Assembly: GCA_025526935.1 (NCBI GenBank)
Contig: JAHLKD010000081.1
Span: forward strand, 124,001 to 188,000
Length of the DNA: 64,000 nucleotides
Origin: Cladochytrium replicatum
Taxonomy: Eukaryota > Chytridiomycota > Chytridiomycetes > Cladochytriales > Cladochytriaceae
Direction of reading: 5' to 3'
Below are positions 16,326 through 49,886 of the stretch, piece after piece. Made by a program: the position numbers and the translations under genes. Every line of letters starts with the position of its first letter. The stretch's first letter is position 1. The notes beneath the pieces are model-generated. The model did no database searches. It worked only from the letters and a program-made list of their open reading frames with translations, and was not told where the DNA came from.

Positions 16326-16389
16326 ATCATGATCGAGGTGTCACCCTAGCCCACTCAATATTCACCTCTCTAGCACGCTGACCAGCCCC

Positions 16390-16760
16390 ATCTTGCTCAC
16401 AATGATCAAACACTGTTGGTTGTAGCACAGTTCCACTCCACTGTCTTTCAACCAGCCAATCAAGCACGGTCAAATAGCCGTCTATGCTGGCACCACTCAT
16501 TGCGTAGCTCGAGTCCGCTTGATTTCTGACAGAGTAGCCGTCAACATGTCCTTTTATGCTTGCACGGTCGAGTGATTCAGAGGTCTAAAGATAAGGTTAT
16601 TATTGTCAAAGAGGAATTCACCGTAGAATACTCGTGTGCTGGCTTCGTCCATCGAAATGACCAGGGTTATAAGTTGATCTGGACATTTCGTCTCATTCAC
16701 TAGAAAACCGGCGACTTTGAAAGCACGTGATAAGCGTGCGAGCGTGGCTTGTGGTGCCAA
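16390..16760 (-). other. Weak ankyrin-like trace and short ORF
   Basis: A 68-residue minus-strand frame ends at 16554. Further on the same strand (about 16510-16390) is a segment, AMSGASIDGYLTVLDWL, that resembles the degenerate ankyrin-like units seen at 24.8 and 31 kb. No intact gene can be built. It lies just upstream of the STEEP1 start. Confidence 0.25.
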
Positions 16761-16765
16761 CCAAC

Positions 16766-17226
16766 ATGCCGAAAGTGGGTTGAAAATGTGTCAATGAAGA
16801 AAGCTGATTGAGTTTGGAGCTTAGATCGTCTCTTCATCTACGCTCTCGTCGTCGGATTCTGCCGCTGCTCAAGCCGAATTGTCAATCTACTACTGTTTGT
16901 GCGGATACTACGCTTTGAGCTGCGAGACCTCACTCAAACGCCTACCAAAGAGACGGACCGACAATGCCACCATCATACCAAAAGAGACTATCGTCATGAG
17001 ACATGATTTGAAAGAAGGCACCGAACCAATAATCATTCAGAGGTACACAGGAGCTTACTTTTGAAAAATTGTGTTTGTTTATTTTGTGCTGTCTGTATGT
17101 AGGCCCGCGGGATATGAGAAACAGCTGAGATTGCACTGCAAGAATTGTAACCTGCCCGTTGCGTACACTTGTGGTTTGGAGATGCCATACGTTTACATCA
17201 TGGACAGCTCACTCTCCGATTACTAG
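16766..17226 (+). CDS. STEEP1 (CXorf56/UPF0428) family protein
   Basis: Three exons: 16766-16774, 16825-17042 and 17103-17226 (351 nt, 116 residues). The first coding exon is only 9 nt (M-P-K), which restores the family's usual MPKxVS start (here MPKIVSSSTLSSSDS). Conserved blocks follow: YYCLCGYYAL (first CxC-type pair), SLKRLPKRRTDNATII, then RPAGYEKQLRLHCKNCNLPV with the CxxC pair, and AYTC. Human STEEP1 is known as an ER-exit factor for STING; the fungal role is unknown. The animal protein is about 220 residues, so this version lacks the helical Lys-rich C-terminal half and stops soon after the zinc-like core. A divergent exon further downstream cannot be excluded, but the TAG at 17224 follows directly. 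Confidence 0.82.
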
Positions 17227-17394
17227 TATCCATCTGCAAACCATTTAACTTAATCTCCAAAATACATGCAAACGGTGATGAGTTCATAATTCAACTACAA
17301 CTTTTCCCAACGGGAGCTCCAAGCAACTCCGGAATTTGAATCAGAGCGAAATCTCTATTTGTGAACATCAATCTGTCGGTCTACCGCATTCACG

Positions 17395-17958
17395 TCACGA
17401 CAATGTGATGGATTTGATGACAGATAATTGGAACTGAAGAATCATCGTCACAAGCAGCAACATGTCCACACCCTTAGCGACTCTCAGAGTGTACTGCTGA
17501 AGTGTGTTGCCCTTCAACGAAACTTCCGCAATCACCCTCCTCGTGTCCCTCGCTAACTTGACATAAATCTCCCCGTTGCCCGTAGCAGTCTTGTAATTAA
17601 CATCGACCACACCTGCTTCCAAGTTCTGCACCACAGCTCGCACCTTCTTCTTCACAAAGCCCTGTGAAATTTCGAGAACATAGCTCAATTGGCTCTCCCC
17701 TTTCACAGTCTTTGACTTTGCTCCCCAGGCTCCGTGCTCGATAGACGCGACTACGTGGTCGCCCTCGAATATCTGTATGGTTTTGAGCGTGCCGTCGTGG
17801 GGGATTGAGTAGAGAATGGTGGACGGGTCGGACTCGCTGTAGACCTTGTAAACCGCGTGCTTGCCCTGGACGGTTTCTTCAATTATGAGGGAGAGTTCGT
17901 CGTCGTGATTGACATGTCGTGCGCCGTGGATGACGAGCTCGTAAGGCCCCAACGGCAT
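17395..17958 (-). CDS. Small protein, possible Tubby-C-like (LURP-one/scramblase) fold
   Basis: Single-exon frame of 187 residues starting MPLGPYELVIHG. The pattern of beta strands (ELSLIIEET, AVYKVYSES, LYSIPHDGTLKTIQIFEGDH, GEIYVKLAR, VIAEVSLKGNTLQQYTLRV) followed by one hydrophobic helix (GVDMLLLVTMILQFQLSV) resembles the 12-strand barrel with a buried C-terminal helix of the LOR/phospholipid-scramblase/Tubby superfamily. This is a structural impression and not a motif match; the exact family is not recognised. It is convergent with STEEP1, with 168 bp between the stop codons. Confidence 0.6.
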   Translation of the reverse strand: MPLGPYELVIHGARHVNHDDELSLIIEETVQGKHAVYKVYSESDPSTILYSIPHDGTLKTIQIFEGDHVVASIEHGAWGAKSKTVKGESQLSYVLEISQGFVKKKVRAVVQNLEAGVVDVNYKTATGNGEIYVKLARDTRRVIAEVSLKGNTLQQYTLRVAKGVDMLLLVTMILQFQLSVIKSITLS

Positions 17959-18132
17959 GGCGTGGCCTATGAATTAGAATGCATGATGAGATTAGGTTTC
18001 CCGCTGGAACGAACACCTTTCACTCGTGGCCCACCAGCAGTTGATAGCATGACTTTTGTAGACAATATGTGGGCACGGTAAATTTAATTTGGCACCCATA
18101 ATTCATAACTGAACTCATAACTGGGTGGTTGG

Positions 18133-19020
18133 ATGGATCACACTGCAGCACTAGGTGGACGGGAAGACGACGTATGTGCAATCTGCCTGCTGTCCTTATA
18201 CTCACCAATCGGAGACAACCAAAACCTAGAAGAAAACGACGATGCATGGATGCTGATGCGGACAGCCCTGGATGGCTGCGGACATTCTTTCCACTTTGGT
18301 TGCATACGTCCTTGGTCTAGGGTTTCCTCCACATGCCCTACCGATCGCCGGGCATTTGAAAAGCTGTTGGTGTACGACAGCAACGGGAATTTGCAGAGGG
18401 AAGTCACAATTGATTCAAGCATAACCTCAATATGGGATGAAATTCAACCGGGGACATGGACATGCGAAGTTTGCAGGCGGAGTGACCGAGAAAGCATTAT
18501 AATGGTATGTATGCAGAAGTGAGCCTTCATTGACAATCCGCTGACTATACAAATCTACTCTACAAAGCTATGCTACCGTTGTAATATTGGTTACCACGCA
18601 GATTGCATCAACCTGGCTAATATCCCAACAGCGGACTGGTTCTGCAGCTCATGTAATGCTGCCATGGCCATTGCAGAGTATGAGCCGGAGACGATACCGT
18701 TTGCCACACGTCTTCAGTTCAACATTTCAAATCAGAGAGCAGCTGTGGAATACTTTTCCGAACAGTCCCGCAGAACTGTTCGGGAACTGGCGCGAGCTCG
18801 AAACATCGGGACGGAGGATACTGATCTCGATACGTTGCGGAGAGAGGTGCCTCAAGATATGAGACAGCGGATCGAACGGCTCCGGAGACAAAGAGAAGTT
18901 ATCGACAATCAGGACGAGTTGACATACCGACTCGAACGGCTCAGGGCAGACATGTCTGAAACTGTACCAGTGGCAAATATCCTATCCTCTAATCCAAGAA
19001 ATGAAGAGATCGAGAGATAG
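18133..19020 (+). CDS. RING-H2 plus PHD zinc-finger protein (tandem copy 1)
   Basis: Exons 18133-18504 and 18568-19020 (825 nt, 274 residues). The RING-H2 finger occupies about residues 14-80: VCAICLLSL, then CGHSFHFGCIRPWSRVS and CPTDR. A PHD finger spans the intron: WTCEVCRRSDRES, then LCYRCNIGYHADCINL and WFCSSC. The C-terminal third is charged, Arg/Glu-rich and probably coiled coil. RING-PHD proteins of the PHRF1 type are nuclear ubiquitin ligases reading chromatin. The next gene downstream has the same domains and the same intron position, so the two arose by tandem duplication. This copy is half as long. Confidence 0.87.
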
Positions 19021-25000: not shown

Positions 25001-25666
25001 TTTTGGGGAAAATCCAATGGACTAAACCCAAAATGGACGGAGGAGAAAGGTCGATGAATGTGTCGAATAAGAACGATGAGCAGCAAGGGCTCCTGAGGAT
25101 CAGTGAGCAGGGAATTCGAACGGTCACCGGTACCGTGGAAAGTGAAGTCCTTGCATGGATGGAAAGACAGTGGCCCTGTCCAGACAAAGTAGTAGAGGAT
25201 TTGTCGTTGCACAGGTGCATTTTCTATGACCGAGGGCTAAGTTTATAAACATACCCATATTCAGTTCATCGAATAGACCCACTTTCAGCTCAGATGCAAT
25301 AAACTTGAAAATGCACGCTATTACTTCTTCACTTTGACACAACAACGGATCTCCAACGGCTTCCCCCAGTTTTCTAGTGCCCTGCGAACATGGTCCGAGT
25401 CCCATTTCGCTTGATCCCCACACTTCACCAGATCGAGCAATGCAACCTAGCCGGGCACAGAATGGCGCGTCGCGAAGCTAAAAACACGGAACAATGTCGC
25501 CTTTCGAGATGCTGTGATCCGGCAGCTAGGATGTTCAATCACGCACAACCCAGTCTTATGTCGAATGTTCGTAATCACTGAAATATTGATACAAACAGCT
25601 CTGGCACATAAAAAACAACATCATACATGTACACTCTTACAAAAAACACCAAACCCCTTCTTTTAT
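25001..25666. other. Intergenic
   Basis: Short frames on both strands without recognisable domains. The right part is the 3' flank of RAD23. Confidence 0.4.
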
Positions 25667-27142
25667 TCACTGCCAGTCGTCTTGCTGACCCTGATCAAAC
25701 AAGAAATTTGCTGCGAGCTCCTCGTTCTTGTCACACGAGAAGTAGGCCTCGATCGCCAGCGCCCTATCGAAACCCAACGCCGTCAACTGCATAAAAAATA
25801 ATCATCAGTCTAATCCAAACAATATGTGCCCTCTTTCGTTTCTCACCCGCTGAATCGCAGCGTCTTCCTCCGGCGTAATCGTAATAACCTGCCCAGGACC
25901 CTCCCCTTCGTCTCCCTCAACCCCCTCAGCGAGCGCCTGCAAGAAAGCGTCGGGGTTCTGGTTGATCAGCTCCAACAGCTGCGGGTTGCGTTCCCCGATA
26001 GTCTGCAGCATCGGCTGGAGCAGCTGCGGCTGCGCCGCGATGAGCTGGCGCATCTGCTGGAACTGCGGCGAGTTGAGGTGCTGGATCAGCTCGTTCATGC
26101 CGGGTCCGCCCGCGGCGCCTGTAGCGACTGGAGCACCGCGCGCACCACCACGGTTGCCCTGCGTGGCGGCGGCTTGCTCAAAGAGGTTCACGTAGCCTTC
26201 GCCGCCTGCTGGTGCAGCCGCAGACGGGGTCTGAGCCTGTGGGGTCTGAGCCTGAGCGGGTGAGGCGGCAGGTGCAGGAGCAGTCTCTCGAGCAAGACCA
26301 TCAGGAATTCCCTAGATTAACAATCAAAAGCCGGATACACGAATAATAATTCAATTCAGCGTACGGTGATGAGGTACTCTGCAGCACGGTCGGGGTTGTT
26401 GAATGCAGCGCGCATGGCACGGACAACCTCTGTTCGCTCGTAACCCATCTCCATCAATCCAGTCACCGCTGCCTCGTATGCGGTACCTGTAACTAATCGA
26501 AAAATGTCAAAGATGTTCCCTCGATTTCATTTCGATGACGTACCGAGACCAGAGCTGTCGAAGGTAGCAGCAGCTGCAGGTGCGGCGGCAGGTGCAGGAG
26601 TGGCGGCTACGGCGGGAGCAACTACTGGAGCCGGAACGGGAGCCGGAGCGGGAGCAGGAGCAGCAGCCGGAGCAGATGTAGTTGCGGTAGCAGGTGCAGC
26701 GGGTGTGGCGGGCCTGGTAGATGCCGAGGAGGATGCGGATGAAGCAGCTGTTTTTGGCTGTCGACGAGTTTGTGATTATTTTCAACCCCACGGCATTAAC
26801 AACTATTCAAACCTTGGTGACCATCACAACCAAGAAGTCCTTCTCAGTGATCCCATACTCCTGAAGCTCCTGTGTATCCACTAGCTTTTTTCCTAAAGTG
26901 ATTAATCAGTTACAGGTACCCCAAGACATATTAATAGCATAAACCTGAATGAATCAAAACCTGAGACTCGACAGTGCAGTTCAAGTGGGAGGCAATCCTC
27001 TCTTTTACGGCGAGAACCTGAACGACACAAAACAAGTCAGCAGATTGTCAACGACACAACCCGTTGAGTTGACCACCTTTTCTGTTGGTTCCGCCTCGAT
27101 GTGGAACATGGTCTGTTGGAGGGTCTTGATCGTAAGCTTCAT
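25667..27142 (-). CDS. RAD23: RAD23 nucleotide excision repair / ubiquitin shuttle protein
   Basis: Seven exons: 27142-27077, 27017-26945, 26892-26813, 26757-26544, 26486-26365, 26311-25847, 25786-25667 (1140 nt, 379 residues). The order is canonical. An N-terminal ubiquitin-like domain ([31 protein letters not shown]) is followed by an Ala/Pro linker and UBA1 ([20 protein letters not shown]). The XPC-binding domain comes next ([36 protein letters not shown]), and then UBA2 ([20 protein letters not shown]). The protein ends [14 protein letters not shown]23 carries polyubiquitinated proteins to the proteasome through its UBL and stabilises the XPC/Rad4 damage sensor. RPN2, another proteasome partner, is encoded 13 kb away. 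Confidence 0.95.
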
Positions 27143-28443
27143 TGTGTATTCTGTACGAGAGGAAAGGAATGAGAAATTGAAACATGAAAATATCAGCAAG
27201 GAGAGGATCTTTCAAAAACGCGCAAGTTTCCAGCTATGATTCCCCCCTAGGTTTCCGATGCAGCGAATGTTTTTAGACGGATTTCTCATGCTGCAGACAG
27301 AGTTCTTGGGATCTCGCAACGTGGCCCAGCATGAGCCAACGACCGCAAGAATGCACGGCACATGATAGCCAAGCGACGCGAACCGCTCGGTAGCAAGGAG
27401 TGATAACACCACGACGGTAATACCGTCTATGAGCCAGAGTTCATCGTACGTACGTTCAGGTGTGACGAATAGAATACGATCCAAGAAAGGCTTACGAATG
27501 CTGCTGGCTGTGGCAGTGCACAGATCCAAATCTGGAAATCAATTGACCTATGTATTATTGATGATTACAGCAGTATTGTTGATGATGGGTGGTAATGGTG
27601 CAGCGAGGTCTGTAGGAAGCATATAGACCATGGCAATCACAGCAATAGGATGGCCACGGTGAGTAAGCATCCACTCACGTCATGGTGTTTATCTTGTCGT
27701 GCATAAAAATTGGACCTTCTCACGGAAGACAGAGACGGAACAGAGTGTTGACGACGAAACAATCATAAAAAACAAGAAAACTAAAACAGTGATGGTCGTA
27801 TCACTACCGCCCCTTCAATGAAAGCACTGACCGGAGGATGGCTTCTGTGAAGTGATTGAGCATCCGACCATCAAAATGAAACAGAAAATAAACGGAATTG
27901 TGTGGGATGCAACAAGAGTAAGCCTCATTGAGTTTCAGCGTGTCCTCCACTGGTGAAGGCCAAACCACCGTAATCGCAATGACTGTAAAACCAATGACGA
28001 ACCAGCACGCACTCGCGTCCCCACAGAGATCTCAGAGACAAAGGCCAAAGCCAAGAACGACCGATGCGTGAAGCAGGAGATTTTAACCTCTCCGGCGCAC
28101 CAGATCCAACCCGACAAAAACCGAGTAAAACGCCAACGAGGTCACAGGTGAAGAGCTAAGAAAACACCAGGAGCGACTGTGATGCTTCCGCAAGCGCGGC
28201 CCGCACTTTCTGCGGCACTGAGCACGTCCGAGGACTTTACCCAAGCTGAGCAAGAGCTGAGAATGCGAGACGCATATCTGCCGTTAGTGAAGCTTCGTGT
28301 CCGATTCTTTCCGGTATCCCCGTGGAAGGAAAAACTGGCTGGGTGGGGTTCTTTTTGTAAAGTAAGGTGTGGCTTAATGGCTGGATTTGAAAGGTTGGAG
28401 ATCACAATTTTTACATTGGAAAAAAAATTGATATAGCTGTGAT
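27143..28443. other. Upstream region of RAD23, unrecognised frames
   Basis: On the minus strand 27230-27700 encodes hydrophobic segments (ITVVVLSLLATERF, YHVPCILAVVGSCWATL and HPIAVIAMVYMLP) that look like remains of a membrane protein, but stops interrupt them. A plus-strand frame at 28179-28436 and a minus-strand frame at 27935-28117 show no recognisable domain. No gene is supported. Confidence 0.35.
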
Positions 28444-29806
28444 TTACCAGTGCGTCTGTAATGAATAGTGGTATTGAATGTTGAACTGGTCAAAGTATGG
28501 CTCGGTAGGCGGGTTGGTGTACAAAAACGGAGGGGTCCACATTTTCCTGATCAGCATCCAAAGTGACATTTTAAACACTCTCTCATTCGAAAAATAAAAT
28601 TATTTTTTAACTGCTTTCTAAGTTTCGCCTGAAAAGATTAAGTATCGCCTTTCAAAAAGTAAGAGAATCGTGATCCATGATATTTTTTTACCAACCTCAT
28701 TCTCCCGGCGTTGTTGCTCCTGACCACGAAGTACGTCTGCCTTCTGCTCCAGCGTCATGACTTTGAACCAGTCCCCTCACTCTATGGTGCAAAGATTAAG
28801 TATATCGGCGGGATGGGATGTGAAGATGTCGGTGTTTACTAGTGTCCCCCGTCAATATTGAAGGCGTCGGGTGTGTCTCAGTCAAGAAAGGTCCCGCTAG
28901 ATGCCGATCAATCTCCTGGAGACTCATTTCCTGTTCCATAGCACGATCATGGGCTTCCTTCAACCTCCTCCAGTCAGCCTATATTGATGAGTAACGAAAG
29001 AAGTTTGAACAATGGTAGTCATACCAACTTGCGGTTGATGTGATTATCATTCTCCGCGATCTGTCTCCTCGCATCGTCCACCTCCTTCTGCACACGACGT
29101 TTGCAGCACCGACCACTAAAAATTTTACCCATATCAACCATCCGTTACTTTTTTGTCAAGTTACTCTTCACCACACAAGTCTGCTCCGCGTTCTCCTGCC
29201 GCTTCTTCTCCGTCATGCCTCGGGTCCCCTGCAACGCCCAAGCGCGGATTTGCTGCCTCTACCTCGCGATCCCGTCGCTCGAGCTCAGGTCCTCACCCTC
29301 GAAAATCTCCCAATCCCCGACCCGGGCAGGGAGGTCTTCCTTTTTGAGTCGGGATCGTACAGATCAAAGTCGCGGCGTTGCCAGGGGTTCCCTGTTGTGC
29401 TGCGCGGAAGTCGTTGGCGGCTCGGTCGGTGCACCGGCGGGACTCGGCCGTTTCGTTGTCGAGGTTCTGAAGAAAACTGTTGGTTACCGTCACGGTCTTG
29501 TCTGATTTGGAGGAAGATCAGAAAGGGAGGAAAGGAGGGATCTGCGGAGTAATGGCTTACCAAAGGCATACTCCAGCTCCCGTTCAATGCGCTGGAGCTC
29601 GTTTTGACCGCAATCTGATGCTCTAGAGTAGGTACATCGATCTGTGTGCAGTGTTTAAATATTGAATAAGGTGGTCGTGGGTCCATCGTGTTACCCGGTA
29701 ATCCTGACTTTAGAGTCGAATATGGAGTTTTTCAATCCTCATCGAGCTTGCGTCGCCTACTTGAAGCGTTCTCGAAGCTCTCCGAGGCAATATCGACTTT
29801 GTACAT
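28444..29806 (-). pseudogene. RIB43A/RIBC2-like flagellar microtubule protein, frame-broken
   Basis: The minus strand follows RIBC2 from end to end. The start (about 29806) gives MYKVDIASESFENASSRRRK, then IFDSKVRITG joins across an intron to IDVPTLEHQIAVKT (29640-29600). Next come NELQRIERELEYAF, an intron, TNSFLQNLDNETAESRRCTD, NDFRAAQQ, RRDFDLYDPDSK, EDLPARVGDWEIFEGEDLS, RQQIRAWALQGT, IDRHLAGPFLTETHPTPSI, KVMTLEQKADVLRGQEQQ, and finally LYTNPPTEPYFDQFNIQYH before a stop at 28444. At least four frame shifts and an in-frame TAG separate these blocks, and about 45 residues before the C-terminal signature are missing. RIB43A proteins are inner-lumen components of ciliary doublet microtubules. 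It is either a pseudogene or a locus with dense sequence errors. Confidence 0.85.
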
Positions 29807-30049
29807 AACTTGGATAGGCGCAAGGGGGGTTGATTGGTATCCGATCAACAAATTGAGCACAGTTGAGGGATGTAGTGGGGGATCTTTATATTTTCAACAA
29901 AGAAATAACAAGCACGTTTTGTTCAACGAAGGAACAACAAGGGTGGATATCTCGGTTATCGTTCGAAAATCCACAATTGCGACATTCGAAAAAACATTCC
30001 TATTGTCCATCCGTCGATCATTCGTCAAGCTGGAAGCGTCACGTTTCCT

Positions 30050-30250
30050 CTATTTCAACGTTGCCCTCCATGCGTCGTGTTCAGCTTCGATTTCCTGGTG
30101 GACCTTGTCGATGTAGATTTTGTACTTTTTGAAGGCGGGTTCGTGCATGCCGTACCACCAGTATCCGCCCAACAAAGAGCCGACGGTGATGGAGCCGACG
30201 AGATCGCGGTAGATGCGGTTGCGGAAGCGGCCGACGATAGGAGCAACCAT
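30050..30250 (-). CDS. COX9: Cytochrome c oxidase subunit VIIa (Cox9-like)
   Basis: A 66-residue single-exon frame. The start MVAPIVGRFRNRIYRDL, then a single transmembrane helix with the GGYWWYG motif, then a short charged tail, match fungal Cox9/subunit VIIa in length and layout. It is a small inner-membrane subunit needed for assembly of complex IV. The tail (YIDKVHQEIEAEHDAW) is a few residues longer than in yeast. It lies about 245 bp upstream of the RIBC2 relic start, same strand. Confidence 0.85.
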   Translation of the reverse strand: MVAPIVGRFRNRIYRDLVGSITVGSLLGGYWWYGMHEPAFKKYKIYIDKVHQEIEAEHDAWRATLK

Positions 30251-30985
30251 GACGATTATCTGATTGAAATTGGGAAAGCACCAGTTAGAGAGATAAGAAA
30301 AAGGTAAAAGTGATGCTCAGTGTACACCGAGAGCAGGGCAGATACCCCAAGACACAACCACAAGCAGCTCGCTCTCTCGCTCTGGGCGTTCAGTTACCAA
30401 AGTTGAGTCAGGAAACCAATCCGGTGGCGGTGCATGTTGAAAGGAAACAATGTTAGTACTAATAACAATATTACGATAAATATGATAATTATGGAATCAT
30501 CACTTCCAACGGCACTACAAGCTAACCAGTCGCAGCATTGGACGGTGAGCGGAATTTAATGTGTGTGCACTATACATCGCCGTTCATTGCGTGGTTGATA
30601 AACTCATCGAAATGGGCTGTCACTCATAATTAGCATTTCTTTATCTTAATATTGTTATTGCTGGAAGGCTCACATTTACACGGTTTGCCGCGGAGGTGGA
30701 TGATGATTTTGTTGATCTGACTGTATGGAACAATCCAAGCTTCGCTGCAGGTGATCATGTCGTTTCTTTCGTTGCGCAGATGACTTGCTGAGGTGGGTTG
30801 AAATTTTAAATGTCTTTTGATCTGCAGCAAAAACAAAGTTTGTGTTTCTGATCTCAGGCATTTATATTTTGTCGCTGTGTCGCATGGCCAGCTCCACTAT
30901 CTCCAGAATCAGGTTTCCTTTGTTCTCACACAGCTGCAGATCAACAACATACTCAAGCAACATGCGAACTACCATCTTCGAAATC
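30251..30985. other. Intergenic
   Basis: Upstream flank of COX9 and AT-rich sequence. Short frames at 30630-30860 show no domain. Confidence 0.4.
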
Positions 30986-31744
30986 TTCTTCAGGGTAACC
31001 TACAAATCTGCCCAAAACTTTCCTCCAATGTTCAAGTGGAGGAAATCCAGGGCTCGAATTGAAGTATGGTCCAGCGAAGGTGATCGACTGGGCGAGCGAG
31101 ATGGGGCATGTGGACATACTCGACTGGTGGTTTGCGAGTGGATTGAAGGTTGAGTACAGCGAAGCGGGCATCGACGATGCATGCAGATACGGACAAGTCA
31201 ACGTTCCAAGTGGAGGAAAGCCAGTGTGGGCGAGCTCAAGAACAGCGACGGAGCGATGAACAACGCAAACAAGTATAACCATCCTGAGGTCCTCGAGTGG
31301 TGGAAATCAAGTGGACTTTCGAGTTGAGGTTCTCGAACCGTGCGATCAACTATGAACTATGCCCAGTGTCAGTGGACGAATCACTGCTGCGGATTGGTGG
31401 ATGTCCCGTGGGCTCAAGTTGAGGTATACATTTAACGCGATCGACGACGGCAGTGGATATGAGAACGTGGAAGTGCTCGAATGGTGGATATCAAGTGGAC
31501 TTGAACTGAAGTACTCCGAGAGGGCCACCGAAGCCGCCAGTTCAAACGGATACATGAAAGTCCTTGGCTGGTGGATATCACGCGGACTTCCGCTGAAGTA
31601 CTCCTTTGCTGCGATTGATTCGGCGAGCAGGATGGCCAAATCGAAGTGTTGGACTGGTGGAAAGCCAGCGGGCTGGAGCGGAAATGGAGTGACGACGTGT
31701 GTGACTGGACACTTAATCTGAGTATTGATAATCCAGCGAAGTAA
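30986..31744 (+). pseudogene. Ankyrin-like repeat protein, frame-broken
   Basis: About six units of a roughly 33-residue repeat occur: VIDWASEMGHVDILDWWFAS, SEAGIDDACRYGQVNV, AMNNANKYNHPEVLEWW, AIDDGSGYENVEVLEWWISS, ATEAASSNGYMKVLGWWISR and the last unit GQIEVLDWWKASGLERKW, ending in a stop at 31742-31744. Each unit keeps the ankyrin helix-turn-helix spacing and a Trp-Trp pair. At least three frame shifts interrupt the run (near 31205, 31330 and 31630), so no continuous product is made. The N-terminal part, often F-box-like in such proteins, was not recognised. Confidence 0.8.
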
Positions 31745-31746
31745 TT

Positions 31747-33340
31747 AAGCCACAAAGCACTTCTCTTCATTCTCAAACTGCGTTTAAAGGAATTTGACAT
31801 CCAGAAACACCAGTCACGTGTAAGCGTGTTTACTTCTGACGGAAACGACGAAGATGATGATATTGGAGTTTTAACAGGTTTGGAGTTTGTAACCCATAGT
31901 GGCTTCAAAATCTTCAGCGCATAAAGTCCATCCACTAAGAAATAACTTCTTCCGTCTCCACTACTTCTATTTTCAGTATCCACTTTGCTTTGTGATCACT
32001 TCCAATGGTAAAAGATGAATTCAAAATCATCCTTAAAAACACTACATCGAGATGGATCCGGTGTGAAGAGTAGAATTTCATCGACATGAACTGTCGTATG
32101 TTCTCTTACTCCGTGTTTACCAGGAATCTTTCGCCAGAAATGACAGACATCTGACAAGTTTCTTAAAAAAACCATAGTTGTGTACTTTTCCCATAAAGAT
32201 ATCCATTCTGGGGGCAGCTTGATGCAAACCATACAAGCTCTTGATCAGTTTACAAACAATCTCTTGAAGTTGCTTGTTAAACTTCTCGAACCCATGGGGC
32301 ATCTCAAGATAGTTTGTTTTGCAAAGCGCTCCATTAAGGAAAGCTCCTTTGCCATCATCCTGAAGTATGTAAAACATAGCTATCGTTGATAATGCGATAA
32401 GCATTCGAAGTAGTCTTCGTGACTGGAGAATAGACCTCATTGAGGTCCTCACCTTCGAAATGAGAAAACGCTCTTGCAACCCATCTAGCTTTGAATCAAA
32501 TAATGTTTCCACTTTTGTCAAGCTTATAATCAAATACCATTTCCCTGATAGGAGATTCTTCCCTTCCAGTAAGATGGATTCTTCCCATGTGTTAGTTTGT
32601 GCAAGTTGATATTTCTCTTCACACATTGCGGTCAGCCAGTATCCTACTTCATCAGGTCGCGACATGCTTCCTTTAAAGTCATTGAAACTGTTCTGTATTG
32701 CCCGGATGGAATAAGTGTTGAGGAGTCGCTGATTCTTTTCTTCAAGTGCCACGGTAAAGCAGGTTTGCTTCGTTTATGGCTTCGAACTTTTGAATTGCCA
32801 TTAAAATTGCGTTTTGCTTTCCGTCCCCGTTCCCTAAGCATATAGTGCTCACGTTCAAGAAGAATCAAAGGTTGTCCAGCAGGTGGAACATAATACTCAA
32901 TAGGAGGTTGGTCCTGCTGAAGAGGCTCGAGATAGCGAGTTGATGGCAATTTCTTCGTTGCTATCCAATTCATACCTCAGTGTGTCTCTTCCCGTACTGT
33001 AGCCTGCACATTCGTGTACTGTCATACATGAAGGGTTGCTTGAACCTTCCTGTGCTGGGATAGAAGAACAAATTCAATAGTATTCCCTTTGAGTGTTGCT
33101 GGAGTCGGACTTAGAGTCATCGTACATGTCAATGTCGGTGTTGTGTAACCCAGAAGCGTCACTCGTATCGTGTCCGGATTCTATATCCAACAAATTGTTG
33201 AGTGAATGCACAATCCTACTGATTCGTGAAGTCTCACCATCCGAAGATACGTTTCTCGCCTTACGAGCGTGTCCAAGTGATTCATCATTGGCGGAGTCCA
33301 TCTCGTACATGTCTTTGGATGCAAGGAGATAGTTCAAATC
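31747..33340 (-). mobile_element. Ty1/copia retrotransposon remnant 2
   Basis: A minus-strand reverse transcriptase (RVT_2) is clear: WLTAMCEEKYQLAQTNTWEE, GKWYLIISL, ALSTIAMFYILQDDGKGAFL and LIKSLYGLHQAAPR (32650-32180). Upstream is the charged linker normally found between integrase and RT (33337-32700). Downstream is a connection-like block, ILKPLWVTNSKPVKTPIS (31915-31850). Integrase, protease and RNase H are not recognised and the frame is broken repeatedly. In the catalytic box the usual Asp-Val-x-x-Ala-Phe-Leu reads DDGKGAFL. The element is inactive. Confidence 0.8.
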
Positions 33341-33914
33341 CCTGACTCGTCGACCACATTCGTCAGTGTATGTGACTGGACTGAGTCGAAGGCTCGGTGA
33401 TTCATTTAATCAGGACTCAGAGAATACTGCCTTTTGTGGAGTAATGCATTGCCTGTGTGATAACTACTACTCTCACTACTGACGCAAGTTAGACTGCTAT
33501 GAGAGCATCGCGAGCTGAACGCAAACTGTGCGCTGATGGGCGGGGAGCAGCTTCACGAGAACCTGCACTTTTCAATTATACCGATGGTGCCGGCCAACCA
33601 AGACATTTAAATGTTGCAAAATAAACCATTCAACAGAATTCGAAAATGGATTTTGAGCAGCAGCATATTTCCTGTGAAGCTTAAACACTGTGTCAAACAG
33701 GACATACTTTCCGGGTTTCAGCTAAACCCTTGTGAAATGGACCTATGTTTGCCACAGTTCGTTATTGACTCCTCGTCTCGTTGAAATGTTGTACCCGTTC
33801 AACGACAATATGAAGGACTCTTATTTCCTCAGGATCAGCTCTCTGACAACTTCTATATTGTTCACACCAGAAATTTTTAAAAAGATCACAAAAATGTGCT
33901 CCTGCAGCCCAGCT
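33341..33914. other. Intergenic, 3' flank of GCV2
   Basis: No feature recognised; a 63-residue plus-strand frame at 33732-33923 overlaps the GCV2 end and has no domain. Confidence 0.45.
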
Positions 33915-36900
33915 TATTCATAATCCTCAATCGGGGGGCAAGAGCAAATCTAAAGCAAAAAGTCAGACCCTTCTTCCGGTATTCTCCGTCCTTTCAAAAC
34001 TCACCAAGTTGCGGTCTCCGTAAGTATCATCCACTCTCGCAACCGTAGGCCAGAACTTCCTCCTCCTCAAGTAGCCCAGCGGGTACGCCGCCTCTTCCCT
34101 CGTGTACGGCCGGTCCCACTTCTCCGTCAGCAACGTGTCGACAGGGTGCGGCGCGTTCGTCAGCACATTGTTCTCCCTCGGCTGCTTGCCCTCCTCAATA
34201 GCCCGGATCTCGCCTCGGATCTTGATCATCGCGTCGCAGAACCGGTCCAGCTCGCCCAGCGACTCGGACTCCGTGGGCTCGATCATGAGCGTGTTGGCCA
34301 CGGGGAACGACATCGTGGGCGAGTGGAATCCGTAGTCGTGCAGACGCTTGGCGATGTCGATGGCTTCGATGCCGGCGGTCTGGGCGAAGGGCCGGCAGTC
34401 GATGATGAACTCGTGCGCGCAGAGGCCGTTGTTGTTGGTGTAGAGGATCTTGTAGTGCTCGGCGAGACGCTTCTGCATGTAGTTGGCGTTGAGCATTGCA
34501 ACTTGGGTAGCCTTTTTAAGACCCTCGTCACCTATGTACAAACAATTGGATTTCTTTGAAATGCGAAACTCAAGCTTAAATTACCCATCATCTTAAGATA
34601 TGCCCACGAGATGGGCAAGATCGAAGCGGATCCCCATGGAGCAGCAGAGATAGGTCCGATCGAATTCTCAGTTGCACCAGGCATCTTGACCACCGGGTGT
34701 CCCGGCAAGAATTCTCCCAAGTGCTTCTTCCTGAATACCCAAAATAAGATCAACAATGCGACTGTACAAAAAAAGTACTCAATACTTACACTCCGATGGG
34801 TCCCATACCCGGTCCACCACCACCGTGTGGGATACAGAACGTCTTGTGAAGGTTCAAATGGCACACGTCAGCTCCAATTTCCGCCGGCTTAGTCAAGCCC
34901 ATCTGTGCATTCAAGTTCGCTCCGTCCATGTACACCTGTCCGCCAGCCTCATGTACAACCCTGCACGCCTCCTTCACGGTGTCCTCAAACACACCGTATG
35001 TCGACGGGTACGTGATCATGATCGCTGCGAGCCTGTCTGCGTGCTTGGCAGCCTTCTCGCGGAGGTCCTTGAGGTCGAGGTTACCCGCAGCGTCGCATTG
35101 GACTGTGACGACCTGGTATCCGGCCATGGCGGCGGAGGCGGGGTTGGTACCGTGTGCGGAGACGGGGATGAGGCAGACTGTGCGGTTCTGCTGGTTGGTG
35201 GAAGCGTGGTAGGCTTTGATGACACGAAGACCAGCGTATTCGCCCTGAGCTCCGGAATTGGGTTGCAGAGAAATGCGGTCGAATCCAGTGGCCTCGCTCA
35301 ATGCATACTCAAGCTCCTGTTCGCAAGAATATTGACTTAATTTTAATTTCAGTGGATTGATATTCAACCAAGCTGACTAACCTGGAGCATAATACGGTAC
35401 CCAGCGGCTTGATCAGAGGGCACGAAGGGGTGGATCTTGCCAAACTCAGGCCAAGTGACCGGGATCATCTCAGTTGTCGCGTTGAGCTTCATGGTGCAAG
35501 ACCCCAATGGAATCATGGCGTTTGCAAGGGAAAGATCCTTGTTCATAAGCGCCGTGATGTAACGAAGCATCTCCGTCTCAGAGTGGTACAAATTGAAAAC
35601 AGGGTGGGTCAAGTAAGCCGACTTTCGTAACAAATCTGCCGGAATACCCTCCGTTCCTTTCAGACCTCCCGCAATATCGTCCACTGGGACCGAGACGGTA
35701 GTAGACTGGTACGAGTTTGAGATTGAGCCTGCAGTGAACACCTCGATGAGCTTAAGGAGGTCTGCCTTGGTGACAGTCTCGTCAAGCTGGACACCAACCG
35801 TTTTGGGTGAAATGGATCGGAGGTTAATCTTGTGGGACAGAGCGGTGGCAATCAGGTCTTCTGCCGGGTACGGGGTCTCAATGGTAAGGGTATCGAAGTA
35901 AGTCGAGTTAGTTATTTTGTAACCAAGACGGGTGACTGCATCGGCAAGGACAGATGTAAGGTTGTGAATGCGCTGTGCAATATCGCGGATGCCCTGGAAA
36001 ACGAAGAAGTTAAAGCAATCTGACAAGTTAAATTCTCAGAAGTTAACAGATACACACCTCAGGACCGTGGTAAACCGCGTACATAGCAGCCATGTTGGCA
36101 AGGAGGGCCTGAGCCGTGCAGATATTACTCGTCGCCTTCTCCCTACGAATGTGCTGCTCACGAGTCTGCAACGAAAGACGGTACGCAAGTTTCCCCGTTG
36201 CATCCTTCGACACACCAATCAAACGACCGGGCATGCGGCGTTTGTGCTCGTCCTTCACAGCAAAGAATGCGGCGTGAGGGCCACCGAATCCAAGGGGTAC
36301 ACCGAAACGCTGAGAGTTTCCGAATGCCATGTCAATTCCAAATTCTCCTGGAGGCTTGAGAAGTGCAAGAGCAAGGAGATCGGTTGCGCAAGTCACCAAT
36401 GCACCGTGGTCGTGGGCCCTCTTAGTGAAAGCTTCCAAGTCTACAATTCGGCCGTCGGTTGTCGGGTACTGTGTTTGAACAGTGAAGGGGGAAGTGTGAG
36501 CACACTCGAATGGAATTTGATAATTCGTATGTTGAAGATTTATACCTGAACGAGGACTCCAACAATGTTGTCCCTGTGTGCAGCAAAGTCCAATGACTCA
36601 ATGTCGCCCTTAATAACTTCGATCCCGAAACCGTCTGCACGTGTCTCCAAAACAGACAGAGTCTGCGGGTGGACCGCATTGTCAACAAAGAAGATGTTCT
36701 TCTTCCTGTTCGCAGCGGAGTAGCACATCAGCATTGCTTCGGCAGCAGCAGTTCCCTCATCGAGAAGCGAAGCATTGGCGATGGGAAGACCAGTCATATC
36801 TTGAACCATCGTCTGGAAGTTGATGAGGGACTCAAGACGACCCTGGGAGATTTCTGGTTGGTACGGGGTGTACTGGAAAGAACAAATGAGTTGTTAATAA

Positions 36901-37479
36901 CAGCATTAGTGCGTTCGTGATGACGGCCCTGTCACAAATCAATACCTGTGTGTACCATCCAGGGTTCTCCATAATGTTTCGCAAGATGACCGGTGGTACG
37001 ACGGTGTCCGTGTATCCCATCCCAATGTATGTCTTAAAGATCTTGTTGTTCGATGCGATCTCTTTCAACTTGTCCAACGTCTCCGTCTCAGCAAGTGGTG
37101 CACCAAGGCGGGTCTGCTTCGCCAGGCGGATCGAGTTCGGGACACCTTTGTCGACGAGATCGTCAAGGTCCTTGACTCGGACTGTTTTGCACATGCTCTG
37201 GATGTCGGCATCCGATGGTCCAATGTGCCTTCTTGCAAACGTATCGAGAGGTGCGAAAGTCGCACTGCCCGACCCCGCCGCGGTGGCCATGGACCGGGCC
37301 GATCTGATGTCATCCGACGAAAACAGTGATTCAGAGCGGATACCGCGACGGAACGAGGTCGCTGTCGAGCAGATCACTGCCGACGATACAAAGCGCTGCG
37401 AGTGAGAAGCTCTGAGAGCCACAGCGGAGACAGGCGACGCGGCAGCCCCGCCAGTTCGAGCAACAGCCGAAAGGAACAT
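33915..37479 (-). CDS. GCV2: Glycine dehydrogenase (decarboxylating), P protein of the glycine cleavage system
   Basis: Eight exons: 37479-36946, 36872-36546, 36468-36058, 35993-35382, 35316-34790, 34730-34585, 34531-34005, 33950-33915 (3120 nt, 1039 residues). The first 75 residues are Arg/Ser/Ala-rich without acidic clusters, as in a mitochondrial presequence. The mature part starts [19 protein letters not shown]. The N-terminal half has [18 protein letters not shown] and the C-terminal half carries the PLP lysine in [18 protein letters not shown]. The small last exon adds [11 protein letters not shown], as in other P proteins, and replaces a shorter read-through end. The enzyme decarboxylates glycine with PLP and passes the aminomethyl group to H-protein lipoate in the mitochondrial matrix. 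Full length for the family. Confidence 0.96.
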
Positions 37480-37900
37480 TTTTGGCAGCGTACAGGAAAC
37501 GAGTGGCTTAAGAGCAGGGGCACACCGTGGGAAAGTAAAAATTGGACCAGTCGGTTGGTTGGTTGGGGCGTGAGAAGGGGCAGACTGCGCTTGTTACTGT
37601 AGGAACAGATCGGCACTGCTCACTGAATACCGCAACAGTGTGCAGAGTGGCTGTCATTACAGAGTTTTGCTTTTATACTCTCCTCTTCCTAATTTACGTC
37701 AGACTAACATCAACCTGATCATTTTGGGCAGACGGAATGCTTTGGAGACTTACTGATGATTTGTCACAGCTGCAGCCAACTGGCAAGTGCGACATCCAAC
37801 AACAAGTATTCTTGAACCATTTTCCCAATTTTCTAATTTTTCAACATGCCCAGTGTGGCTGTCCCCATCAACTCGCTCAACTTCAACCTCGGCCGCCAAA
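37480..37900. promoter_or_regulatory. Divergent promoter interval GCV2 / methyltransferase-like gene
   Basis: 421 bp separate the two start codons. A CT-rich stretch (37800-37850) precedes the right-hand gene. No specific operator was recognised. Confidence 0.45.
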
Positions 37901-39408
37901 ATGTTTGGCGTCAGACTGACCCTCCCGCTGCTCGTTACCGCGCTCATCGCCGTCATCTATCTGCTCTCGTCTCGAGCATCCTCTCCGACCTCATCATCGA
38001 ATTCCTCCCAGAAATACGTTTGTCCTGAACCTATCATTTGTCCAATGGTTCCTCACGACAACGGACCAGCAGCAGCGTCAGCACCACCACCAGATTCTGC
38101 AGAATGCAAGCATATCTGGAATCTTGACAGGGACTGCTCGGTGCCATACGACATGGTCAGCGCAACACCGGGAGTTTTGCCAATGTTCAACGTCGAGGCG
38201 GACATGGGTCGGCAGATTGTATGCAAAATGGCCAACGGAAACGATTTCGAGACTGAGTGGGCGCAGAGGCTCATTCCGCTCATTGACGGGAGAAAAGCAG
38301 TCGCATATCATCGAAAGCAGTGGGAGGTGAGTTAACACTGCTGTGCATAGGGATCACGGAGGATTCAGACTCATCTTGTTTTTTCTTGAACAGAGTGCGT
38401 ACATTGCTCATGTGGTTGAATCTCTGAATCTCTGCGGACCTGGGAAGCGAGGAATGACTTGGGGTGCTGGCAAAGAACGTCTCGTCAGGTAAATATCTTA
38501 TGAAGGACGTGGTTCCTTGCTATTGTCTGTAATTTATTTATTTCTTTTGTTTCAGCTATTTTGCAAGCAAGAATTGCGACATTCTGGCATCGGATCACAA
38601 CGAGGAAGACGCTTGGAGGAGCAATTGGAGTCAACAGAAAGCCGCGAAAGAGAAATTGTATTACCCTCATTTGATCGACAAGCAGACATTTGAAAAAAGG
38701 GTGTGGTTTAGGTATGTGCTTCATCGCTGTTGATTTATCCCAGGATGTTTATTCGCTCCATTTTTATAGGCACCAAGATCTGAACCATATGCCTATCGAC
38801 CTTCGCTACTCGTTCGATTTTGTCTGGACCGTGCGAACTGTTGGTAAGATAATATTTGATTTTGCATGTCACTGGGTCTCACGCACAGACTTTCAGAGCA
38901 CATTGGGTCTATTCTTCTGGGCCAAAGGTAAAATTCTTCAAATACTTCTCTTACAGAATCCTGAATTCTCATTCTCAGGTTCATAATGAACTCTCTCGAT
39001 ATGCTCCGACCTGGTGGAGTTGCTATGCACAGCTTCGAGTTCACCCTCTCTTCCGACTCCCGCACAGTCGATCATGGCTCATTCGTCCTCTGGCGCAAAA
39101 GGGACGTCGAGCGTCTAGCTGCTTCCCTCCGCGAGCTTCGGTACGAGGTCTTCCCCATCGTCTGGGGAGCAGGAAGCCACCGCGTCGACAAATCCCCTGA
39201 CGAGGCTCCATATAAGCACTACGACCACGTCAAGCTCGTTTTGGCAGAACACATTGTCACGAGCTTTATCATAGTGGTCAGAAAGCCGTACTCGTGGGGC
39301 AACCATCTCCCGCCTCTACAGAATCTTTGCGAGAATCCGCCGAGTTCGTTGGAGGAAGCTGCGTTGGGGTCGTCGAGTGGGAAAGCAAAGGCAAAGGGAC
39401 AACTATGA
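37901..39408 (+). CDS. Membrane-anchored methyltransferase-like protein
   Basis: Six exons: 37901-38326, 38394-38488, 38556-38711, 38770-38843, 38897-38927, 38979-39408 (1212 nt, 403 residues). The chosen ATG (CAAAATG context) gives MFGVRLTLPLLVTALIAVIY, a type II signal anchor; an upstream in-frame ATG at 37787 would add 38 residues and is less likely. The luminal part has LNLCGPGKRGMTWGAGKERL (glycine-rich loop like SAM-binding motif I), then SKNCDILASDH, DFVWTVRTVEHIGSIL and MNSLDMLRPGGVAMHSFEF, which follows the motif order of class I methyltransferases (LxPGGxxxxxE/H). Acceptor substrate unknown; sugar or cell-wall glycan modification in the Golgi is possible but only inferred from the anchor. 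One exon is just 31 nt. Confidence 0.72.
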
Positions 39409-39735
39409 AGGGGAAGAACGAATTATCGCGGTTGTTTCCGACTACATTTGGGTGGAATGTTTCTGATTCTTTGTTCTTGGGATTTTAGATTGCTTTTTTT
39501 TCTTCTCTCATCCATTAGCTGCATTACTATATACATGACTGGGTGTAATGGGCTGCGTACAAAGGAATCGTGCGCTCTGATTGTCAAGTGTTCACAGCAC
39601 ATGGGAAGACTACGCCTTCTGCATTCTACTGTTGGGTGTTCCAGCTCAGCGATCAACCTGATGTTTCAAACATCTTCTTGTTTTAATGTAAGAGGCATAA
39701 CCAATTCACGTATTGCACCGTTCATCGTCAAGCAA
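39409..39735. other. Convergent intergenic interval
   Basis: 3' flanks of the methyltransferase-like gene and of the PARG gene. T-rich after 39480. No other feature seen. Confidence 0.5.
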
Positions 39736-40620
39736 TCACAAAGACAACTGATTCCATCGGTCCTCCATTCTCGTCTTCATGTTTCCGTCAAGCACAGCGA
39801 AAAACACTTTCTTCAGACCCATTTGGTAACCCTCATCCACCAACACCTTGTGAAACAGCTCTGTGACTTGCTCCACAGAATTCTTGAACACGCCGCATCC
39901 GAACGCGCCCAGAACAACGGAATCATGCTCCTTTAACCGAAACACCTGCATGACCCTCCGGATCCTCTCCTCCATCGCCACCGGAATTCTATCTGCCCAG
40001 TGTGGTTGTTTGCGTCGAACCTCACCGGCGTTCACTGCAGCACATGTAACGACTCCAGCTAGCATGCATTGTGGCAAGTAATCACCCTGATCGTTGCGAA
40101 AGAATGGAACGCTAGGAGAGTAGAGCACGTTTGACGTGTAGAAGTACTTTTGCGCCGCCGGTACGTTGGATTGGGTGCACGGTGCATAGAAAGCGGGAGT
40201 AGATTCCAGGATCAAACCCAAACCAGACGATCGTGCCAAAGATTCTTCTTGGGCGTTTGCACCGCTGCGAAACCCGCCGCCCGGATTTTTTGCGCTCGCA
40301 AAGTTGAGAATGCCAACGGAGGTCGAGGAGGAGTGAAGAAGCAGAGCCGCTTCAAGGGTAGAGCAATGGAGAAACTCGATCGATGGTGGGGTTGTGACAG
40401 CAGCCGAAGGCTCAGATTGAGGAATTGGGTCAGAGAAAGGGAACAGTATGGTCCCTTCCAAGGAAGATGCGTAGTGATGGCGAAGAGAGACAGGCTCCCT
40501 ACTTGGGCCGAGGTAGAAGCCCTTTCCGATAGATGCTATGGTAGACTGAGCGATCTCGAATCTGTTGTTTCTGTTCGCCATTGGTAGTATTGATAGAGGT
40601 GGTGGGGTAAATCTGCCCAT
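39736..40620 (-). CDS. Microbial-type poly(ADP-ribose) glycohydrolase (TIGR02452 family)
   Basis: Single-exon frame of 294 residues; an alternative start is MANRNNRFEIAQ 14 residues in. The macro-fold active-site loop is VGILNFASAKNPGGGF followed by ANAQEESLARSS, which gives the GGG-x(n)-QEE signature with the catalytic Glu pair. Further conserved blocks are SVPFFRND, MLAGVVTCAAVNAG and SVVLGAFGCGVFKN. The enzyme removes ADP-ribose polymers from proteins. Length and order match filamentous-fungal and bacterial members. It shares the minus strand with RPN2, whose stop-to-start gap here is about 215 bp. Confidence 0.9.
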   Translation of the reverse strand: MGRFTPPPLSILPMANRNNRFEIAQSTIASIGKGFYLGPSREPVSLRHHYASSLEGTILFPFSDPIPQSEPSAAVTTPPSIEFLHCSTLEAALLLHSSSTSVGILNFASAKNPGGGFRSGANAQEESLARSSGLGLILESTPAFYAPCTQSNVPAAQKYFYTSNVLYSPSVPFFRNDQGDYLPQCMLAGVVTCAAVNAGEVRRKQPHWADRIPVAMEERIRRVMQVFRLKEHDSVVLGAFGCGVFKNSVEQVTELFHKVLVDEGYQMGLKKVFFAVLDGNMKTRMEDRWNQLSL

Positions 40621-40836
40621 TTATGAACCATCTGGACGGCGGAGGAGGAGCACTGGGCCACCTATAATTCATCATCAATAAAAATAATCTGATAATTCAA
40701 TAATAATATCAATCATGGGGTGGTTGTAAATGTATCTGTCGGATAGGGTTTTCTGGCACTCAAACATTATTAGAAAGATCGTTGTGTACTACAAATGAAC
40801 AGCTGAATCCTCTTGATCACGTCACAACCAGCCCCC

Positions 40837-43800
40837 TTAGTCCCTGTATTCAAATGCCTCTGGAAATTACACATTTGTATCGTCAGCTCAAACTTGCTCC
40901 AATATTGTGACCTACAACTTACCCGGAGGTGCTGGCTCACTGTCGGTCGCAGGCGTAGCGTTCGTCGTACTTGCAGCCGCCGGTGTGCTGGCTGGTGCAG
41001 CCGTAGTAGATGGTGCCGCTGTTGCCGGGCGTTCTTTGACCAACCATCAATTAGTCAACTTGATGGCTTCCTCAAATTCACTTCAAACTCACGCGAACTG
41101 CTCAAAGAGATGAGTTCTTCGGGCTCGGACCGCCGCAGATCCTTCACGATGGTAATGCCACCTGTAATGGTCTTGGAGAACCCGTGTTAGTCTTCCCCAT
41201 TTCGGACTCCATCGACTTTCAAACGTACCTTCTTCACTGGCTGATACCGATCCTCGTCCTTGAACGTGATGTACTTCAACTGCTGCGGAAGCACCCTCGT
41301 CAAGTTCTGCAGCACCTCGAAGCTCTCATCCTTCTTCTTGGTTTTCTTCTGCTTTGCCTCGGTAGTTGGCGTCGCCAGAGGTACATCCTTCAAACTAAGA
41401 TTTAGATGGCCCCTGTCTGTGTTTACATTTCATCACTCACCACATCCATGACATCTGTGACAGTCAAGCTAGTTGCGCTGTTTGGCGGCCCACCGGTCGC
41501 AGGGGTCTCTTTGCCGCCCTTCTCCTTCTCGTGCCGTCTAGCACGTGCCTGAGCTTTTGCCGTTGTTGACAGCACTGCAGTCGTAACCTTCTGGACAGTC
41601 TCCACTGCCGGAGGCTTGGTGGGAGGGTGGTACGCGAAAAGCGAGCTTCGGGCGTTGGACACATATTCGAGCTTCGGAATCTACTCAAAAACGGGCGATA
41701 AATACTTCTGAAATCTCTTTACAGCAATATAAGTACCTCAAGCTTGCCGTTCAAGGCAATAATTGCAGTTGGGGTGAACGCAAGCGAGAGGAAGTGCGTG
41801 AGTGGGTACCAGTACCAGAACTGGCAGAAGATCGCAGTTCCGACGATTGCGCTCATGTTGGCATAGCCCGATCGGGACTGGAGGGAGATGGTGACGTTGC
41901 GTCCACCTGAGAGAAAAATTCAAGTCAGATCGACATAATATGATTTGAACGCAACAGGTGCTCACCGGCGTCTATGATGCCCTGACCAAGAACGGCACCA
42001 AACTTGGACATCGCGTCCTCGTGCTTCTCTGAAATCAACTTCTCGTACAACTTGCGTGTAGCCACAACCTGGGGCGGGCAAGTTATCAGGACATTCATAA
42101 ATTCGATGACCAAATACATACTCTTGGTGACATGGCCTCGTTATGTTGGACGAGAACCATCGCCAACGAAATGAGCGCTCCTTGCCTGACGTAGTCAACA
42201 GGGTCCTTGGTAAGAGGCTCAAGAATTGCCAATGCATCCTACAAAACGGTAAACAACAAGTTCACGCTCCTAAAGTTTGAACAAACCTCAAGTCCAGTAC
42301 CCGCGCAAGAAATACCCAAAGCCAAAGTCGCTCCATAACGCACGTGCGGGTTGTAGCTCTCACTCAAAAGCTGCACGATCCGCGGCACCTGCTTGTGGTT
42401 CTTGAACAACAAGAACCCGATCGACGTCACAGCCGCCCTCCTAACATCATCGTTCACATCCGACACCGCAAAGTGCAACAGTTTCTTGAGCGCTTTGTTG
42501 TTGCCGGTCCCCGCGTACGCCATCGCGATGGTGTAGATACCTCCGTAACGCAGGATCGGGTCTTTGTCCGAGAGAAGCTGTTCGATCAAGGCATCCGCGG
42601 TCTCCTCACGCCCGTACATGATCATACTGATACCCACAGCGAGACCACGAATAATTTTCTCATGCTGAGTGTCATGGGCATACTGAAGCATTTCATCAAT
42701 GGCTTTCGAAGATGAGGTGCCCAACATGACAAGACCCATAGCTAAGCCTGCCGCTTCTCCCGCAACTGCAGAGTCAGCGAACAAAACATTCTTGATGGTT
42801 TCGTAGAGATCTTTAAGGATAGTGGGTTTAACGTAATTCGAAGAAGTTTTATATGAAATTGTTTACCGTCGTTGTCGGTGGCCATGGCAGCAACACCTAG
42901 TCCAAGACACGCGCCATGCTGAATGACTTCGTTCTGGTGTGTTTTGAGAGCGGTAGTGAGGTGCTCGATAACTGCGTCACCATGGTTGGCATGGATCAAG
43001 CCAAGTGCGAAAAGAGCACCACCTTCGGAGTACGCAGAGCCGCTGACACCGTCCTTTGGGAGGTATGGGGCAAGCAATGCTTTGCCGAGGGAGATTTGTC
43101 CCTATTTAAACGGTTAGCCAAAAAAGCGTGAATCCAATTCTAGGGCCACACCTTGTGAATCACTCCAAGTGCAGCAGTTGCGCTAAACTTTGTCCAGTTT
43201 GTAGCACGGCTCAACCATTCCAAGTTCTGCCTCAAGAATTCATCACTTGTTGTTCCAGCATGCATGAACGCATTAGCAAACGTGACGGCGGTGTGGAACA
43301 CCGAGTTACGCGACTCCAATGCAGTCTTGCTAGACTTCAAGATAAGGATATCCGCATGGTTGTTGCGGTGCAGAAACTCCAAGTTGAGTTTAATGGAAAG
43401 TTCGCCACCCAAAATATTCCGAATTTGGTTGAAAGCGGCAGCGTCCGATGGCATATCATCTGTCTCCATCGCATCGGTATCCGCCGCCGGGAGACCAGCT
43501 TTCACTCGTGCCAGGAACTGCTGGGTGGCGTTCTCCTCAAGATCGAACGCAACCTGGTATGCAATTAGCTTCGAGTCCTGTTTGAAGCAGAAATTTCAGC
43601 AACCAGACATTATATAGACAGGAAATGGCGTACTTCTCCTGACGAGAGCAATGATTTCAACATCTCAGAGCAAGCGGTAGGATCGTTAAGGTGTACCAGG
43701 CATTGTGCGACCGAAAAGTAATCTGGCTCTTTAAGGTTGTTGTACAACTTCACCAGTGATCGAAGAAGCTTGCAAAATTGTTCAATCCCAACTTCTCAAA

Positions 43801-44685: not shown

Positions 44686-44973
44686 TATGGAAAATTAAGA
44701 TACTGATCAACGAAGTGGGAATGGTGTAGATGCTGGTCACTGCAAGATACACGAAGAAAAGAGATCTTGTCAATAGCGGAAATTTGAAAGCATTCGCCGC
44801 CCCTGCGAAGCGAGCGAGCACTGCAGACCCATCAGATTCTTCCGATCGTTCTCATACATAAACGGCAATTCCGTCGTCGCGCAAAGTGCTGGCCAGTCTG
44901 TTCTCCTCTCCTAGTGCTGACGTTGGCTACAGTATCACGTGTGTCAGGATAATTTCAAAATAATTAGATTCAC

Positions 44974-48706: not shown

Positions 48707-49886
<1,180 letters not shown>

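Follow-up and report, generated by a model that had tools for sequence, protein, structure and literature searches.

A decayed RIB43A/RIBC2 duplicate in the flagellated fungus Cladochytrium replicatum and a probable old doubling of a large part of its genome

Introduction

The inner proteins of doublet microtubules include RIBC1 and RIBC2. Fractionation, known from Rhizopus and Saccharomyces, is the process by which one of two duplicates is lost once a genome has been doubled. In mice, the loss of RIBC1 or RIBC2 alone was reported to be without effect on male fertility, and the loss of RIBC1 reduced sperm velocity; in mice lacking both proteins, the velocity was lower still and the litters were smaller, with an axoneme structure that was normal by electron microscopy (PMC12842877, from an excerpt of the report). 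The terms RIB43 and RIBC2 do not occur in the main text of an atlas of fungal flagellar proteins from 2026 (PMC13358043).

Duplicated fungal genomes have been described in several forms, here cited from excerpts of the respective papers. In the allopolyploid Coniochaeta 2T2.1, the copies average 91.9% identity and 97.83% of the gene models lie in duplicated regions, and 88.47% of the duplicated content of the diploid chytrid Rhizoclosmatium globosum is >95% identical (PMC6757388). Whole-genome duplication has been invoked for the flagellated fungus Allomyces macrogynus (PMC5913265), for which an intron density of 1.30 was given (PMC8476143) and which probably belongs to another lineage than the fungus studied here. 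No report of a chytrid whole-genome duplication was found among the matches listed in the open-licence PMC literature.

The DNA analyzed here, referred to as the window, is a stretch of 64,000 nucleotides (C81:124001-188000) from the 50.5-Mb, 198-contig assembly of Cladochytrium replicatum. It holds a broken copy of a gene of the RIB43A/RIBC2 family (PF05914), which encodes a doublet-microtubule inner protein. A second copy on contig C93 matches the family nearly end to end; the window copy keeps the same exon order but has neither a usable frame nor a stop, and a splice pair and the greater part of exon 7 are missing. As in Rhizopus and Saccharomyces, two-fold collinear blocks, losses on either side, double TCP-1 genes and mostly single MCM genes were found, although here in a fungus with ciliary genes. 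The two-fold genome with divergent syntenic copies resembles that of Coniochaeta 2T2.1 as excerpted, but the copies are more divergent and the loss is further on. The proposed duplication in a flagellated fungus is shared with A. macrogynus, in contrast to whose excerpted intron density the 1.1-kb coding sequence analyzed here contains seven introns.

Results

The RIB43A/RIBC2 gene in the window is disabled

When the window was aligned to the intact gene on C93, all eight exons of the RIB43A/RIBC2 gene were found in order from 29806 to 28465 on the minus strand, which bore out the identity assigned to the broken gene in a preliminary description of this DNA. The remnants are as follows:

29695..29806, minus strand: RIB43A exon 1 remnant; retains the start codon, with small gaps and a TGA in register at codon 26
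29561..29641, minus strand: RIB43A exon 2 remnant; one-base gap, splice sites retained
29179..29501, minus strand: RIB43A exon 3 remnant; 86% identical, with two frame-breaking gaps, a 27-base deletion and an in-register TAG; intron-3 donor lost
29025..29128, minus strand: RIB43A exon 4 remnant; acceptor of intron 3 lost, with a gap of five bases and a TAG in register
28840..28978, minus strand: RIB43A exon 5 remnant; two-base gap
28692..28781, minus strand: RIB43A exon 6 remnant; two-base gap
28597..28628, minus strand: RIB43A exon 7 remnant; 31 of 167 bases, the other 136 deleted together with the donor
28465..28546, minus strand: RIB43A exon 8 remnant; bears the C-terminal signature, without an in-register terminal stop

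Seven unambiguous frame-breaking gaps (1, 1, 2, 1, 5, 2 and 2 bases) were distributed over exons 1 to 6, in 953 aligned exon bases, together with three further, ambiguous gaps at exon ends and frame-keeping gaps of 3, 6 and 27 bases. The deletion in exon 7 removed 136 bases. Four in-register stops were observed: a TGA (exon 1), two TAG codons (exons 3 and 4) and a TAA that spans the exon 5/6 junction. Both the donor and the acceptor of intron 3 were lost, and the alignment to the C93 gene revealed no terminal stop in register. The preliminary description had counted at least four shifts, a TAG and a deletion before the C-terminal signature; this was right, but an under-count. Its frame shifts were real insofar as seven true gaps are present, whereas some of the frame changes seen by eye correspond to ordinary introns, of which the intact gene has seven.

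No open, spliceable coding sequence extends across the PF05914 profile in the window copy, which is thus not a functional member of the family and no longer encodes a RIB43A protein. Seven parental intron positions are recognizable, the flanks are collinear and the frame is disabled, as in a non-processed pseudogene. An origin as a processed retro-copy was rejected because the intron positions have been retained.

The identity between the two copies was 79–86% in exons 1–6 and 69% in exon 8, and that of the introns was 41–62%. Over the 305 codons scored, Ka was 0.10 and Ks 0.80, so that the likeness of the window copy to RIB43A is not due to chance. The resulting Ka/Ks of 0.13 is low and by itself looks constrained; the relaxation of constraint is shown only by the asymmetry between the copies and by the lesions.

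An intact copy is located on contig C93

When the genome was searched with the RIB43A profile, four matches reached the threshold of E 0.001; each was an exon of one C93 locus and had no internal stop, and the window copy was not found at this threshold. When positions 28200-30300 of the window were used for a DNA search of the genome, only the window itself and the C93 region were recovered, the latter in three pieces of 74–80% identity. The C93 gene model comprises eight exons and seven introns of 53–64 bases each, all of the GT-AG type, with a coding sequence of 1137 bases for 378 residues. Residues 1-378 of the protein matched the RIBC2 chain 8snb_6U of a solved structure (E 9.3e-70), and 12 further RIB43A-type chains were matched in the structure search. 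The Pfam RIB43A match (E 1.7e-98) was obtained with a 380-residue version of the protein that carries two surplus residues, and profile positions 4-372 of 372 were covered (PF05914).

With its full-length profile match, its match to a RIBC2 structure and its clean introns, the C93 copy belongs to the RIB43A family and, judged from its sequence, is complete and conserved. The 'second good copy' considered in the preliminary description does therefore exist, as an intact 378-residue RIB43A gene, and the core flagellar gene has not undergone a unitary loss.

The window and C93 share a duplicated block

Two collinear stretches were found between the window and C93, a duplication of the whole region that the preliminary description had no means of seeing:

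25578..52556, plus strand: collinear stretch in the same orientation as C93:96591-127690; matched fragments 71–87% identical
11310..18933, minus strand: second collinear stretch, in the opposite orientation to C93:89243-95737; identity of matched fragments 69–81%

The GC content of the two blocks is alike (48.2 and 48.3%). Since the matched fragments across both stretches were 69–87% identical and not near-identical, a haplotig or a recent allelic copy was rejected. The neighbors in the block include glycine dehydrogenase, proteasome-repeat, FKBP and RRM proteins, and the proteins of neighboring ORFs can be matched to C93 over long stretches in a single frame (as over 836 codons at window 11443-13980). 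The Ks of neighboring ORF pairs had a median of 0.67 and a range of 0.36–0.88 in 15 of the 55 listed pairs (3,128 codons), which were our own selection of pairs with at least 90 codons and Ka/Ks < 0.3; 39 shorter rows, some of them antisense frames, were dropped, as was one 116-codon pair with Ka/Ks > 2, which was taken as a wrong frame. The RIB43A value of 0.80 compares with this median of 0.67. Frame-breaking gaps in the 15 pairs numbered 34 in 10,411 aligned bases, a raw count that includes read-through introns and mutually compensating gaps, and this is a poor control which does not by itself set RIB43A apart.

A small gene adjoins the pseudogene:

30050..30250, minus strand: small neighboring gene, COX9-like; 66 codons, open in both blocks

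It gave no match in Pfam, and we take it to resemble cytochrome c oxidase subunit 9/7a. Its pair with the copy in the C93 block (L005 5561-5848, minus strand) had a Ks of only 0.10 over 66 codons and is an outlier against the neighbor median of 0.67, which could reflect strong codon constraint or gene conversion.

Genes have been lost from both blocks in an interleaved manner. A SAMHD1-like gene is present on C93 and absent from the window, and a search of the genome gave no other match to it. Two genes show the opposite distribution:

39739..40620, minus strand: PARG-like gene (PF10021); in the window block, absent from the C93 stretch
49346..50002, plus strand: aldo/keto reductase (PF00248); in the window block, not found on C93:1-200000

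The PARG-like gene was likewise not found on C93:1-200000, nor was a second copy of it found in a DNA search of the genome.

Several other features of the window were observed. The aldo/keto reductase gene is followed by a second aldo/keto reductase piece at 50603-50934 (plus strand), with two matched parts 47 and 54% identical. Two related tandem genes, which we take to be RING-like, lie at 18121-20787 (plus strand); C93 matches the first only, at 89.2–89.6 kb, and the second was assigned as PHD by Pfam. A repeat cluster at 56616-59810 matches C93 at 13, 28–29 and 80–86 kb, mostly at 78–93%; its offsets suggest tandem units near 97 bases, and it is probably a mobile or tandem repeat. The ORFs at 24083-24947 and 32120-32976 appear to us to resemble pieces of Copia-type retrotransposons; the latter is matched in part on C93 at about 14 kb.

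Duplicates of similar depth occur elsewhere in the genome

The genome-wide extent of the duplication was sampled on 11 contig pairs. Besides the window and C93, duplicates of broadly like depth were observed on the ten further pairs sampled. Nine gene pairs on nine contig pairs had Ks values of 0.51–0.96, so that the synonymous depth was similar across the sampled genome, with the COX9-like pair as the outlier.

The comparison of TCP-1/Cpn60 genes took in 15 of 17 loci (those on C18 and C30 were left out), and 14 of the 15 form seven pairs with 80.4–85.5% DNA identity and Ks of 0.55–0.96; for the remaining locus, on C60, a DNA search of the genome found no partner. The two PACRG copies are 82.7% identical, with Ks 0.51 and Ka/Ks 0.03, and a third, weak PACRG match on C61 matches neither of them. 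Two proteasome genes are located 63–65 kb apart on both C59 and C35, and the four DM10-domain loci fall into two sets of like pattern; these proteasome and DM10 pairs were deduced from matched profile ranges. The C59/C35 block was aligned, and six collinear pieces of 68–80% identity were found in the 8 kb compared. Collinear blocks of the kind expected for a whole-genome duplication pair were thus observed both for the window and C93 and for C59 and C35.

Several of the sampled genes are single-copy. Eight MCM loci were recognized and all were compared in part: only those on C72 and C7 form a pair (Ks 0.86), and the other six have no partner among these loci. The C72 locus is MCM2 and the C60 locus MCM7 when checked against solved structures; the names of the remaining six were judged from motifs, by which we did not recognize MCM5, so the list may not be complete. 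The C159 locus lies near a contig end and may be partial. A DNA search with the MCM locus on C59 gave only short matches to those on C72 and C60. In the second MCM2 copy (C7:358668-359300, compared with C72:116119-116803), a long internal stretch is missing and frame-breaking gaps are present, whereas the C72 exons are open. Because of this loss and these gaps, the C7 copy was regarded as another decaying duplicate.

Residue changes are concentrated on the window copy

The polarity of residue changes in RIB43A was determined with three solved chains as outgroups, which we take to be from a sea urchin (8snb), human (7ung) and a protist (u160509). The copies differed in residue at 63 of the 309 codons compared. 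At these sites, the outgroups favored the C93 residue in 32 cases, the window residue in eight and neither in 23; where at least two outgroups agreed, the split was 19 (C93) to 3 (window). Given the split of 32 to 8, the decay fell on the window copy. As read from these sequences, constraint was maintained on the C93 copy but not on the window copy. The constraint on the window copy appears to have been lost late, in about the last 15–20% of the divergence, an approximate and rough figure in view of the high Ks and the distant outgroups.

Discussion

The window copy of RIB43A is very probably a non-processed pseudogene, one duplicate lost after an old doubling of a large part, and probably all, of the genome, either by whole-genome duplication or by the merger of two related genomes. 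The doubling would have left two RIB43A copies in collinear blocks. With the intact C93 copy presumably making the doublet-microtubule inner protein, the window copy would have been free to decay; it may have remained under constraint over the greater part of the divergence, to be lost late, and would now do nothing as a protein gene. The TCP-1 genes are double, the MCM genes mostly single, losses are found on either block, and two copies (those of RIB43A and MCM2) are half-decayed; together these are the usual marks of loss after genome-wide duplication or hybridization, to which the 11 sampled contig pairs point.

One form of such a doubling, which we put forward tentatively and hold to be somewhat less probable than not, is an old allopolyploid, in which two lineages that had diverged to a Ks near 0.7–0.8 merged comparatively late into one nucleus of a flagellated fungus. 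If so, the late merger would explain the long constraint on both RIB43A copies and the only recent decay in the window, and MCM2 would likewise be in the course of reduction to one copy.

The second block could also have been made by one or several large segmental duplications and not by a whole-genome event. Several sampled genes are single-copy, and the extent of the duplication is known from sampled pairs only, as this would allow; but single-copy genes are also expected after partial loss, and a segmental origin is made unlikely by the broadly similar synonymous depth of duplicates on 11 different pairs of contigs, two of which form collinear blocks.

It is still less probable that sequences of two related species, or of divergent haplotypes, were combined in the assembly and that one of the two had lost RIB43A. 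An assembly that was mixed or unmerged would likewise show two-fold collinear blocks. However, if two genomes had been assembled together, a complete set of MCM genes would be required from each, and two such sets were not found: for six of the eight MCM loci there was no partner among those compared, and in the only pair one copy is degenerate. In DNA searches, no second copy was recovered for one TCP-1 gene, and one MCM gene had only short matches to other MCM loci. The GC content of the blocks does not differ, and the identity of 69–87% between fragments is far from the >95% of most duplicated content in the excerpted account of diploid R. globosum.

The 'local assembly errors' suggested in the preliminary description cannot explain the whole pattern, and a local assembly or sequencing error as the cause of the broken gene is very improbable. 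Of the seven clear gaps, three comprise a single base, and individual gaps of this size could be errors. Such errors do not account for the 27- and 136-base deletions, the four in-register stops, the loss of both intron-3 splice sites or the residue changes concentrated on the window copy, and the neighboring ORFs keep long single-frame matches to C93. Equally improbable is the suggestion that 'flagella are degenerating', with RIB43A as an early casualty in this lineage: one working copy was left in the searches made, but it is complete and conserved on another contig, so that the flagella need not be failing, and the PACRG pair with its low Ka/Ks and the four DM10-domain loci are present.

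Under the preferred reading, the loss of one of two duplicates after a doubling, a mild effect may be expected from losing one of the two fungal RIB43A copies, because the losses of RIBC1 and RIBC2 in mice were mild in the excerpted report. One broken copy should not be read as the loss of an organelle. The greater interest lies not in the pseudogene, which is an ordinary one, but in the apparent genome-wide duplication of a zoosporic fungus. With a doubled genome of this kind, one could test which parts of the flagellum tolerate or need a doubled dosage, and how genes are lost after duplication in an early-diverging lineage.
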